22,231 nucleotides of DNA from Saccoglossus kowalevskii (lineage: Eukaryota > Hemichordata > Enteropneusta > Harrimaniidae): NCBI RefSeq assembly GCF_000003605.2, contig NW_003109088.1:98445-120675 (forward strand), read 5' to 3'. A model generated the notes under the pieces. The model saw only the letters and a program-made list of their open reading frames with translations. It was not told where the DNA came from and ran no database searches. Shown one piece after another: positions 20,601-21,999 of this stretch. The position numbers and the translations under genes were made by a program. Within the stretch, counting starts at the first letter, position 1. Every line of letters starts with the position of its first letter.

Positions 20601-21999
20601 ACAAGTACTTGTTTGACGATCAGATACAAATGTCAATCATTTTAATGTTAAAAAATCATATTCCAGCTATATTACTATAAACAAAACTATATATCTTAAA
20701 TTTGATAACTAACGGGGACTGTGCCATGCATGGCTTGTTTTATATAAATTCTTTGTTCATTTTGAACCAAGTGGACATAACAAAACCATTTTCTATATGT
20801 CTCAATCAACATTAAAACAAAATTATGCAAATTTATTTTGTGTGAATTAACAAAATTTGGCTTTTTGTGCAAAGTGTTAAACCATGGTACAATGATTTAC
20901 CTGCCGGTATCACTGTGTTTGTAAATGAAATGAAAATTTTCAGTGGGTACAATATGATTGTGAAGGTTGTATTTTACCTTCAATTTCAGTTATAAAGTAT
21001 TTTATTATAAAGCCTAAAATCTATGAATGTTCTCTGGAATCATTGAAATTTCTAATCTTTGTACATATCTTGTTTTAAGGCTACTATTGATGCAGCAGTG
21101 AAGGAATTACTTGGTCTGAAAGCTCAGTACAAGACACTGACAGGAATAGACTATAAACCTGGAGCTGCACCTCCTGTAACTAAAGCTGCCCCTCCTGTGA
21201 ATAGTGGAGTCTCCCCAGCTGATATTGAGGCAATAATCAATAAAATCACTACACAGGGAGATCAGGTCAGGAAGCTAAAATCAGAGAAAGCTGAAAAGGT
21301 AAAATTAGCCATTTTTTCTACAAATCATGAAAACATTGCTTAGATTAATAAAAATAAGTGCCAGCATATTGAATAAACCCGAGGCAAAATGATAAAAGTT
21401 ACTGTATTACAACACAGTCAATGGATAGTTTGAAAATTTAGTTATGCTTATGATAGAAAAACTCCTTTTGCACACATCCAATAGAAGTGCACAATAACTA
21501 AAAATTAGATTTATTGTATGATAGATCATTTACAGTATGACTTATTTTGACTACAGACTCACATATTTCATTGAATTGCTGTAAAAACAGAACAAAAAAA
21601 TTATAAAAATATATATAACTTGATCGTTTCTTGTACATGTACAATACTGACTATGTGCCATGCATGCCTTGTTTATTATGAATCTGAGGAGGGGGTCAGA
21701 AATATATTATAGAAGCTCGAAACCTGGAAAATTTAATGAATCATTGAAATTTCTAATCTTTGTACATATCTTGTTTAAAGGCTACTATTGATGCAGCAGT
21801 GAAGGAATTACTTGGTCTGAAAGCACAGTATAAGACACTGACAGGAATAGACTATAAACCTGGAGCTGCACCTCCTGTAACTAAAGCTGCCCCTCCTGTG
21901 AATAGTGGAGCCTCCCCAGCTGATATTGAGGCAATAATCAATAAAATCACTACACAGGGAGATCAAGTCAGAAAGCTAAAATCAGAGAAAGCTGAAAAG
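5642..21999 (+). CDS. EPRS1: Bifunctional glutamate/proline-tRNA ligase, N-terminal 925 residues (gene runs off the window)
   Basis: Charges tRNA-Glu and tRNA-Pro in the cytosol; in animals it is a core member of the multi-synthetase complex. Twenty coding exons keep one open frame with GT-AG junctions throughout. Domains: GST-like N-domain ~1-175 (YLVGxSLSLAD 110-120); class I GluRS core ~198-500 with the HIGH-like box H215-I-G-H218, RFDDTNP at 239-245 and the KMSKS-like VLSKR at 436-440; eukaryotic-type beta-barrel anticodon-binding region ~505-710; Lys-rich linker; WHEP repeats from ~753. The order matches human EPRS1 almost segment for segment. The class II ProRS half should follow but lies outside. 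The start M1 was chosen because the short N-terminus reaches the conserved NPPLxALL motif, as in the human protein. Exons 19 and 20 are near-identical duplicates. Confidence 0.97.
5685..6871 (+). other. EPRS1 intron 1
   Basis: Holds a Harbinger-type MITE (5948-6279), an A-rich tract near 6577-6592 and a perfect 11-bp inverted repeat at 6701-6711 / 6774-6784. No other gene seen. Confidence 0.85.
5948..6279. mobile_element. Tourist/Harbinger-type MITE in EPRS1 intron 1
   Basis: A 332-bp element bounded by 26-bp terminal inverted repeats beginning GGCCAGACTTTT (25 of 26 positions match) and flanked on both sides by TTA (5945-5947, 6280-6282). A TWA target duplication with GGCC-type ends is the mark of the PIF/Harbinger superfamily. 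There is no transposase ORF, so it is non-autonomous. The interior is A/T-homopolymer rich. Confidence 0.8.
6872..6956 (+). CDS. EPRS1: EPRS1 coding exon 2 (residues 15-43)
   Basis: Encodes [20 protein letters not shown] and on to L41-N42, first part of the GST-like domain. The true donor is GA|GTAAGT, one codon before an in-frame TAA; the split codon becomes D43 with exon 3. Confidence 0.93.
7202..7301 (+). CDS. EPRS1: EPRS1 coding exon 3 (residues 43-76)
   Basis: Includes the segment [10 protein letters not shown] at 52-61, equivalent to human SILRYLARVA, followed by LYG. GST-N-like region; phase 0 end at GAG|GTAAGT. The acceptor is preceded by a long T tract. Confidence 0.97.
7432..7588 (+). 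CDS. EPRS1: EPRS1 coding exon 4 (residues 77-128)
   Basis: GST-C-like helices: starts VDHWFDFS (human IDHWLEFS) and carries [20 protein letters not shown]. In the human protein this domain docks AIMP2 and other synthetases in the multi-synthetase complex, so a similar role is inferred. Confidence 0.97.
7589..8469 (+). other. EPRS1 intron 4
   Basis: 881 nt, AT-rich. It contains a G-rich stretch at 8012-8028 with three G-runs, one short of a standard four-run quadruplex. No gene or clear mobile element. Confidence 0.75.
8470..8630 (+). CDS. EPRS1: EPRS1 coding exon 5 (residues 129-182)
   Basis: End of the GST-like domain ([11 protein letters not shown], human APVHVKRWFGFL) and a Ser/Thr-rich flexible linker (~162-182) leading to the catalytic core. 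Confidence 0.96.
8631..9101 (+). other. EPRS1 intron 5
   Basis: 471 nt. The 3' third contains a truncated copy of the TA-flanked MITE (9018-9081), ending only ~20 nt before the acceptor. The rest is unassigned. Confidence 0.75.
9018..9081 (+). mobile_element. Truncated MITE fragment (right half)
   Basis: ACAAAACACCCACAAAGCC and the following AAAATTAATT...AAAATAAAGTATTT match the right-hand ~64 bp of the full copies at 9421-9629 and 16097-16304. The left half is missing or unrecognisable. Confidence 0.7.
9102..9190 (+). CDS. EPRS1: EPRS1 coding exon 6 (residues 183-212)
   Basis: Encodes the linker end and the entry strand of the GluRS core, [20 protein letters not shown], nearly identical to human up to the HIGH box. 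G212 is split (GG|A). Confidence 0.97.
9191..9711 (+). other. EPRS1 intron 6
   Basis: 521 nt; its centre is occupied by a full-length 209-bp foldback MITE. Nothing else recognised. Confidence 0.8.
9421..9629. mobile_element. TA-flanked foldback MITE, copy 1
   Basis: Inverted ends TTGTAGAATACTTTATTTTC... and its partner ...AAAATAAAGTATTTTACAG pair over ~25-30 bp; TA dinucleotides flank both sides (9419-9420, 9630-9631). A TA target and CTGT-type ends suggest a Tc1/mariner-related non-autonomous family. No ORF. Confidence 0.78.
9712..9838 (+). CDS. EPRS1: EPRS1 coding exon 7 (residues 212-254), HIGH box
   Basis: Carries the class I signature H215-I-G-H218 in [13 protein letters not shown], which binds ATP, and R239-F-D-D-T-N-P245, which helps recognise glutamate. 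All signature residues are present, so activity is expected. Confidence 0.98.
9839..10349 (+). other. EPRS1 intron 7
   Basis: 511 nt; no repeat, RNA gene or other feature recognised. Confidence 0.7.
10350..10542 (+). CDS. EPRS1: EPRS1 coding exon 8 (residues 255-318)
   Basis: GluRS catalytic core: [19 protein letters not shown] and AYVDDT, followed by the EREQR helix. Ends in phase 1; S319 is completed by exon 9. Confidence 0.98.
10681..10852 (+). CDS. EPRS1: EPRS1 coding exon 9 (residues 319-375)
   Basis: Contains the tRNA acceptor-end-binding region with the strongly conserved [12 protein letters not shown] at 353-364. Ends AA|GTGAGT; K376 is restored by exon 10, so no coding exon is missing in the intervening assembly gap. 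Confidence 0.97.
10951..12220 (+). mobile_element. Hairpin-ended element with tandem core units, intron 9
   Basis: The left end is a compound hairpin (10951-10982): GACTCCCAT pairs with ATGGGAGTC around an inner GTGC-GAA-GCAC. A TG-rich tract (~11000-11026) follows, then units starting near 11034, 11196, 11347, 11493 and 11632 (period ~139-162), each with ATTTGCAT and a GAAACTTGGTACATA-like box. The right end GCACATGGGAGT (12209-12220) is the inverse of the left terminus. The layout recalls HINE/pearl-type non-autonomous Helitron relatives; assignment is by architecture only. Confidence 0.7.
11675..12176. other. Assembly gap (502 N)
   Basis: A run of N inside the tandem units of the intron 9 element. 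The repeat nature of both flanks probably caused the assembly break; the true length is unknown. Confidence 0.99.
12629..12862 (+). CDS. EPRS1: EPRS1 coding exon 10 (residues 376-454), KMSKS box
   Basis: The largest exon here. It contains the [10 protein letters not shown] segment, [14 protein letters not shown], and the KMSKS-like loop V436-L-S-K-R440, which closes over ATP during adenylate formation. Near identity with human throughout. Confidence 0.98.
12863..13187 (+). other. EPRS1 intron 10
   Basis: 325 nt, nothing recognised. Confidence 0.7.
13188..13272 (+). CDS. EPRS1: EPRS1 coding exon 11 (residues 454-482)
   Basis: [16 protein letters not shown] followed by MTVEGLKQF: the helical stem-contact region directly after the KMSKS loop, almost invariant among eukaryotic GluRS. 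Phase 0 end. Confidence 0.98.
13273..13644 (+). other. EPRS1 intron 11
   Basis: 372 nt, AT-rich, no recognised feature. Confidence 0.7.
13645..13815 (+). CDS. EPRS1: EPRS1 coding exon 12 (residues 483-539)
   Basis: Passes from the catalytic core ([20 protein letters not shown]) into the first beta-barrel of the anticodon-binding domain. Phase 0 at both ends. Confidence 0.97.
13944..14080 (+). CDS. EPRS1: EPRS1 coding exon 13 (residues 540-584)
   Basis: Beta-barrel strands with [20 protein letters not shown] and the NWGN turn. Ends in phase 2; the K585 codon is completed by exon 14. Confidence 0.96.
14324..14378 (+). CDS. EPRS1: EPRS1 coding exon 14 (residues 585-603)
   Basis: A 55-nt exon, [18 protein letters not shown], matching human NADGKIISLDAKLNLENK. 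Recognised by homology and by GT-AG junctions that keep the frame. Confidence 0.94.
14558..15848. mobile_element. TIR element beginning CAGGGTTCTCCCCA (hAT-like ends)
   Basis: The ends are perfect 14-bp inverted repeats (14558-14571 and 15835-15848), and GCTGGACGG recurs in inverted form just inside. The CAGGG terminus resembles hAT elements, but no clean 8-bp target duplication is seen; only a 6-bp GGTGTC/AGTGTC near-match flanks it. It contains a CRE-like TGACGTCA followed by TATATAA near 14760-14777. No transposase reading frame is visible; non-autonomous or decayed. Confidence 0.6.
15967..16014 (+). repeat. Near-perfect 21-bp stem hairpin
   Basis: TATCAACTTGCACAA (15973-15987) pairs perfectly with 15994-16008 across a six-base loop. 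After one mismatch, ATTTT/AAAAT adds five more pairs. Origin and function unknown. Confidence 0.75.
16097..16304. mobile_element. TA-flanked foldback MITE, copy 2
   Basis: Same family as 9421-9629. It begins CTGTAGAATACTTTATTTTC and ends in the inverse, with TA at 16095-16096 and 16305-16306. The interior is alignable with copy 1 over its whole length. Confidence 0.8.
16654..16806 (+). CDS. EPRS1: EPRS1 coding exon 15 (residues 604-654)
   Basis: Begins [13 protein letters not shown], then [19 protein letters not shown]: second beta-barrel of the anticodon-binding domain. Phase 0 at both ends. Confidence 0.97.
16807..17583 (+). other. EPRS1 intron 15
   Basis: 777 nt. It contains an inverted repeat: GTTCTATTCTCT (16995-17006) pairs with 17063-17074, with an inner TCACCAA / TTGGTGA pair (17031-17037, 17056-17062). 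No gene seen. Confidence 0.7.
17584..17696 (+). CDS. EPRS1: EPRS1 coding exon 16 (residues 655-691)
   Basis: [20 protein letters not shown] followed by [12 protein letters not shown]: the last strands of the GluRS anticodon-binding domain, matching human closely. S692 is split by the intron. Confidence 0.97.
17697..18012 (+). other. EPRS1 intron 16
   Basis: 316 nt, no recognised feature. Confidence 0.65.
18013..18124 (+). CDS. EPRS1: EPRS1 coding exon 17 (residues 692-729)
   Basis: Finishes the anticodon-binding domain ([20 protein letters not shown]) and enters a Lys/Ser-rich linker toward the WHEP repeats. Confidence 0.95.
18125..19423 (+). other. EPRS1 intron 17
   Basis: 1,299 nt. The middle 0.8 kb is a TIR element (18218-19031); the remainder is unassigned AT-rich sequence. 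Confidence 0.8.
18218..19031. mobile_element. TIR element beginning TTGCTATGTTCACA
   Basis: 35-bp terminal inverted repeats (18218-18252 and 18997-19031; 29 of 35 positions match). Just inside the left end the motif AGCCGAA recurs several times. TGTTCACA-type ends are seen in some Harbinger/ISL2EU-like families, but the target duplication is unclear and no transposase is encoded. Confidence 0.62.
19424..19573 (+). CDS. EPRS1: EPRS1 coding exon 18 (residues 730-779), front half of WHEP 1
   Basis: A Lys-rich stretch (730-741), Ser/Thr/Gly linker, then [20 protein letters not shown]: the first helix and turn of a WHEP domain, a helix-turn-helix that binds RNA or partner proteins. It lacks the near-identity seen between exons 19 and 20, so it is the older unit. 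Phase 0 at both ends. Confidence 0.95.
19574..21079 (+). other. EPRS1 intron 18
   Basis: 1,506 nt, two-thirds of it one hairpin-ended tandem-unit element (19632-20720). The rest is AT-rich with no recognised gene. Confidence 0.85.
19632..20720 (+). mobile_element. Hairpin-ended element with tandem core units, intron 18
   Basis: The left end is a compound hairpin (19632-19666): AGTCCCCGTT pairs with AACGGGGACT, with an inner TCGGA / TCCGA stem. A TG/CG-rich tract runs to ~19722. Six units then begin at about 19823, 19973, 20125, 20275, 20417 and 20548 (period ~131-152), the better-preserved ones with a small palindrome such as ATGGCCG / CGGCCAT and the best three with an AAACTTGGTATATA-like box. 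The right end AACGGGGACT (20711-20720) inverts the left terminus. A 176-codon ORF across it is fortuitous. Confidence 0.72.
21080..21298 (+). CDS. EPRS1: EPRS1 coding exon 19 (residues 780-852), WHEP duplicate A
   Basis: Residues 780-807 ([20 protein letters not shown]...) close WHEP 1. 808-825 is a Pro/Ala linker with two APPV repeats. 826-852 ([20 protein letters not shown]...) opens WHEP 2. Phase 0 on both sides, 73 codons. It differs from exon 20 at five bases, four silent and one V823/A. Confidence 0.96.
21299..21780 (+). other. EPRS1 intron 19
   Basis: 482 nt between the duplicated exons; its left part is the diverged counterpart of intron 20. No other feature. Confidence 0.85.
21781..21999 (+). 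CDS. EPRS1: EPRS1 coding exon 20 (residues 853-925), WHEP duplicate B
   Basis: Repeats the plan of exon 19: closing half of WHEP 2, Pro/Ala linker (A896 in place of V823), opening half of WHEP 3. Donor AAG|GTAAAA is identical in both copies. WHEP 3 must be completed by an exon beyond the window. Confidence 0.96.

Follow-up and report, generated by a model that had tools for sequence, protein, structure and literature searches.

The stretch of DNA analysed here, called the window, is 22,231 nucleotides long (Saccoglossus kowalevskii; contig positions 98445–120675 in an assembly of 572 Mb and 4,830 contigs) and holds the 5′ part of an EPRS1-like gene on the + strand. The assignment is read from the order of the Pfam matches, GST-like, then GluRS, then WHEP, with the class I GluRS catalytic domain lying 5′ of the WHEP linker. 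Among seven exon-sized open reading frames (ORFs) scanned, five matched a Pfam family: tRNA-synt_1c in three (E-values 1.6e-16, 2.5e-16 and 1.3e-31), tRNA-synt_1c_C2, the C-terminal anticodon domain, in one, and GST_C in one. No family was found in the other two. The WHEP part of the window is made up of three exons, as follows.

19424..19573, + strand: EPRS1 exon E1, Lys-rich linker and first half of WHEP 1, phase 0 ends
21080..21298, + strand: exon E2 (copy 1), carrying the second half of WHEP 1, a linker and the first half of WHEP 2
21781..21999, + strand: exon E3 (copy 2), carrying the second half of WHEP 2, a linker and the first half of WHEP 3

The Pfam family WHEP-TRS (PF00458, curated cut-off 32.5 bits) was matched by all three exon stretches. 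E2 (E 2.5e-19, 69.5 bits) and E3 (E 2.2e-19, 69.6 bits) score above the cut-off, and each contains two partial WHEP stretches. E1 alone falls under it (E 6e-07, 29.8 bits; profile positions 3–22); splice signals are present in the DNA at its boundaries, and in silico splicing of E1, E2 and E3 gives three WHEP stretches with 183.8 bits. E3 also matches the solved structure 1fyj chain A, ‘multifunctional aminoacyl-tRNA synthetase’ (E 1.3e-10), which is a WHEP repeat of human EPRS.

In the assembly, one WHEP exon (phase 0-0) of an animal EPRS1 occurs as two tandem copies. E2 and E3 are each 219 bp long (73 codons), open, in phase 0 at both ends, preceded by AG and followed by GT, and they start 701 bp apart. 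They are identical at 214 of 219 bases. Four of the five differences are silent (21124 T/A, 21130 C/T, 21265 G/A and 21271 G/A); the fifth, 21210 T/C, exchanges Val for Ala at codon 44, in the linker, and is the sole amino-acid difference. A blastn self-comparison of window positions 19501–22231 returned this likeness over 301 bp at 98% (E 1.6e-151), which is beyond chance. Since the exon consists of half a WHEP, a linker and another half WHEP, one copied exon adds one WHEP. The reading frame is kept whether both copies of the exon are used or one is skipped.

Directly after the end of the window begins a run of 8,650 N (22232–30881 in window coordinates, contig 120676–129325). Past it lie two further WHEP-bearing exons (32607–32840 and 33301–33555) with two WHEP stretches. 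ProRS-like frames, recognised by eye, follow 3′ of the WHEP exons on the same strand and in order (L004 4556–8765); the N run separates them from the exons of the window, and by order and strand they may belong to the same gene. Taken together, the visible exons would imply at least four WHEP domains (E1/E2, E2/E3, E3 with the next exon, and the last pair). The N run could conceal more WHEP exons.

The likeness of the two copies extends beyond the exon on both sides and is distributed unevenly over the 701-bp unit, which divides into the following segments.

21037..21336, + strand: high-identity core of copy 1, exon with 43 bp of upstream and 38 bp of downstream intron
21738..22037, + strand: high-identity core of copy 2, 98% identical to the core of copy 1; the left edge fits a tandem junction
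21337..21572, + strand: intron flank downstream of core copy 1, diverged, homologous to 22038–22210
22038..22210, + strand: intron flank downstream of core copy 2, diverged, homologous to 21337–21572

The cores agree at 98% over 300 bp, and the intron portion of the core is identical at 80 of 81 positions. The downstream flanks are clearly homologous (blastn pieces with E 4e-08 and 1e-08); only 122 of their 147 aligned bases agree (25 differ), with 98 gap columns and 17 more at the edge. Upstream of 21037/21738 the copies cease to resemble each other (22 of 48 aligned sites alike). In the 572-Mb assembly the 300-bp core was located at these two places only (two candidates, both scored; from one search, the number is at least two). 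These data agree with much of the first-pass annotation of the locus: its naming of the gene as EPRS1 is supported by the GST_C, tRNA-synt_1c and WHEP-TRS matches in order, and its count of two 73-codon exons, 701 bp apart, with five differences in 219 bases, four of them silent, is exact. The repeat had there been described as the exon pair, which stands, while the block of high identity is in fact longer by the 43 and 38 bp of intron.

The difference between core and flank was assessed in several ways. Intron core against flank (80/81 versus 122/147) gave a Fisher p of 1.2e-4, and the contrast persisted when 30 bp per side were fixed in place of the fitted core (p 0.0019) and when exon silent sites were added to the intron core (p 3.5e-4). 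A likelihood scan, run on intron sites together with third codon positions, placed a low-divergence segment at 21037–21338, with 5 of 156 sites differing versus 25 of 145 outside, which was matched by 9 of 1000 shuffles. A simple recent tandem duplication requires the whole 701-bp unit to be about equally alike; found instead was 98% identity in 300 bp, followed by 122/147.

We lean towards an older tandem exon duplication whose exon core was made alike again at a later time, probably through gene conversion. According to this proposal, some 700 bp (one exon and the intron downstream of it, with the left edge near 21037/21738) would have been duplicated in tandem some time ago, and the intron parts would then have diverged by about 17% substitutions and by indels. 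One unit would later have been copied onto the other along about 300 bp across the exon, by intragenic gene conversion or unequal exchange. Such re-copying would make the exons seem younger than their duplication. Both exons would be spliced in frame, and GluRS and ProRS would be joined by at least four WHEP domains; the additional WHEP, a repeat of a kind that binds partners, is predicted to lengthen the putative RNA-binding linker and to leave catalysis unchanged.

Several points weigh against this proposal. Taken by themselves, the silent sites of the exon (4 differences in 54) show no significant contrast to the flank (25 of 147; p 0.11). A max-segment permutation test was not significant, either for all sites (1797/20000) or for intron sites (8273/20000); this test used a fixed, poorly chosen mismatch penalty and was uninformative, and the likelihood scan was then run. 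With 57 bp of upstream intron included, the scan split best at the left edge (30/301 versus 26/48; 0 of 1000 shuffles), separating 21037–21572 from the rest, and not at the right edge of the core. The left edge may be the duplication junction itself, and so only the right edge bears on conversion. Further, the core edges used for the Fisher test were drawn from the identity itself, the downstream flank of copy 2 is visible for about 170 bp only, and all comparisons were made within one assembly.

The main rival is a single tandem duplication of moderate age without conversion, after which purifying selection held the exon and the splice-proximal intron while the other intron drifted and acquired indels. 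There is only one amino-acid change between the copies (pN 0.006, pS 0.074), the p of 0.11 for silent sites versus flank agrees with this explanation, and a plain tandem junction would produce a left edge as sharp as the one seen at 21037/21738. Selection accounts for the protein, but less well for 80 of 81 identical intron bases in the core versus 122 of 147 just outside. As judged by eye, no other visible WHEP exon has splice-side flanks resembling those of E2 and E3, so that long-term constraint on the intron ends of this pair is not evident. We regard selection alone as rather unlikely, though it is the strongest of the competing explanations. An assembly fault, in which two haplotypes or a mis-filled gap were joined in tandem and a single exon is seen twice, is improbable. 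Tandem mis-joins do occur in assemblies of heterozygous animals, and long N runs occur in the contig; one starts at base 22232, immediately behind copy 2. However, there is no N between the copies, and they differ by about 17% substitutions plus indels in the intron and by 7% at silent sites, which would be very high for two alleles. The upstream flanks of the copies also differ, where alleles of one intron should match, and the occurrence of the core at just two assembly places (at least two, in the single search) is a further, thin point against a fault. Weighed by the divergence of the flanks, haplotype duplication is less likely than a true duplication.

A recent tandem duplication had been proposed in the first-pass annotation; the intron differences would then be due to very fast local change. 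The tandem duplication of the exon is upheld; its recency is not well supported. The 98% identity over 300 bp is what a recent event would give, but the downstream part of the same 701-bp unit has 122/147 with 98 gap columns, and the segment found by the scan was reached by just 9 of 1000 shuffles. A period of 701 bp copies 701 bp of one age, and the uneven identity thus speaks against a single recent event, which we consider highly improbable. It had further been stated that WHEP number varies between animals, with three in human, which the main text of Ray and Fox (2014; PMC4072531) confirms. The same text gives four to six WHEP domains for the EPRS of sea urchin, acorn worm and amphioxus; the number of at least four implied here lies inside this range, and the idea that the locus shows an expansion at an early stage is not well supported.

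Other repeats were seen in the window. The intron upstream of E2 contains a repeat-like insert at 19632–20720. Its ends are short and inverted (AGTCCCCGTT / AACGGGGACT), and units of about 150 bp lie inside it. A 30-base stretch common to 20720 and 21653 was considered as a sign of duplication of the upstream intron and was not used, because its 12-base heart recurs at 9889 (contig 108333) and because 20720 marks the border of the repeat-like insert. An element of about 225 bp with inverted ends occurs twice, at 9418–9642 and 16094–16317 (aligned pieces 85–89% alike); this is possibly a family of short non-autonomous DNA transposons. Diverged tandem units of about 140–160 bp at 11012–11674 abut an internal stretch of 502 N (11675–12176), and an inverted repeat of 103 nt, 92% complementary, is formed by 1606–1708 and 2067–2169, 358 nt apart.

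More tentatively, and with less confidence than for the history of this one pair, the WHEP exons of EPRS1 may be under concerted evolution, conversion between neighbouring units repeatedly resetting exon identity inside old duplications. If this were true, tight within-species clusters of WHEP sequences would partly reflect homogenisation, and the hidden 8.65 kb may hold more members of the array. It is already published (in the main text of PMC4072531) that WHEP number varies, that the repeats were amplified in particular lineages and that a single protein can hold nearly identical WHEP domains. To this the locus adds evidence at the DNA level that the likeness of two exons need not reflect the age of their duplication. 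Exons that are 98% alike, next to introns of the same 701-bp unit that are not, are a concrete warning for WHEP-based phylogeny; if the effect were general, tight WHEP clusters would be weaker evidence for recent duplication. The locus would also lend itself to a test for polymorphism in repeat number through unequal exchange. Otherwise, it is an ordinary case of exon duplication.

With regard to known systems, the locus resembles the animal EPRS described in the main text of PMC4072531, with a variable number of WHEP domains between GluRS and ProRS and lineage-specific duplications. That text reports ‘two nearly identical WHEP domains’ in Capsaspora EPRS and binding of RNA by WHEP repeats (GAIT elements in human), and it employs the repeats as phylogenetic characters, with tight clustering taken as recent duplication. 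In contrast to that work, which is based on domain sequences, the comparison here covers both exon and intron of a single repeat unit, and the two were found to differ in identity. Compared with the linker of human EPRS1 and its three WHEP domains, at least four are implied here, and two units are nearly identical.

The terms ‘concerted’, ‘conversion’, ‘unequal’ and ‘recombination’ are absent from the main text of PMC4072531, as judged by a term search, and no report of conversion between WHEP exons was found in the literature searched, where most subscription papers are missing. A search for WHEP with ‘gene conversion’ led to a microsporidian sex-related locus (PMC2866331). A parallel in architecture is provided by exon arrays 4 and 6 of arthropod Dscam, which, according to PMC3236188, undergo mutually exclusive splicing; conversion was sought there with GENECONV and none was found (p 0.2 and 0.5). 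Like the exons of these arrays, E2 and E3 are tandem exons that code for domain parts and are separated by short introns. Unlike the Dscam exons, E2 and E3 can both be spliced in with the frame kept, and the explanation favoured for them is homogenisation.

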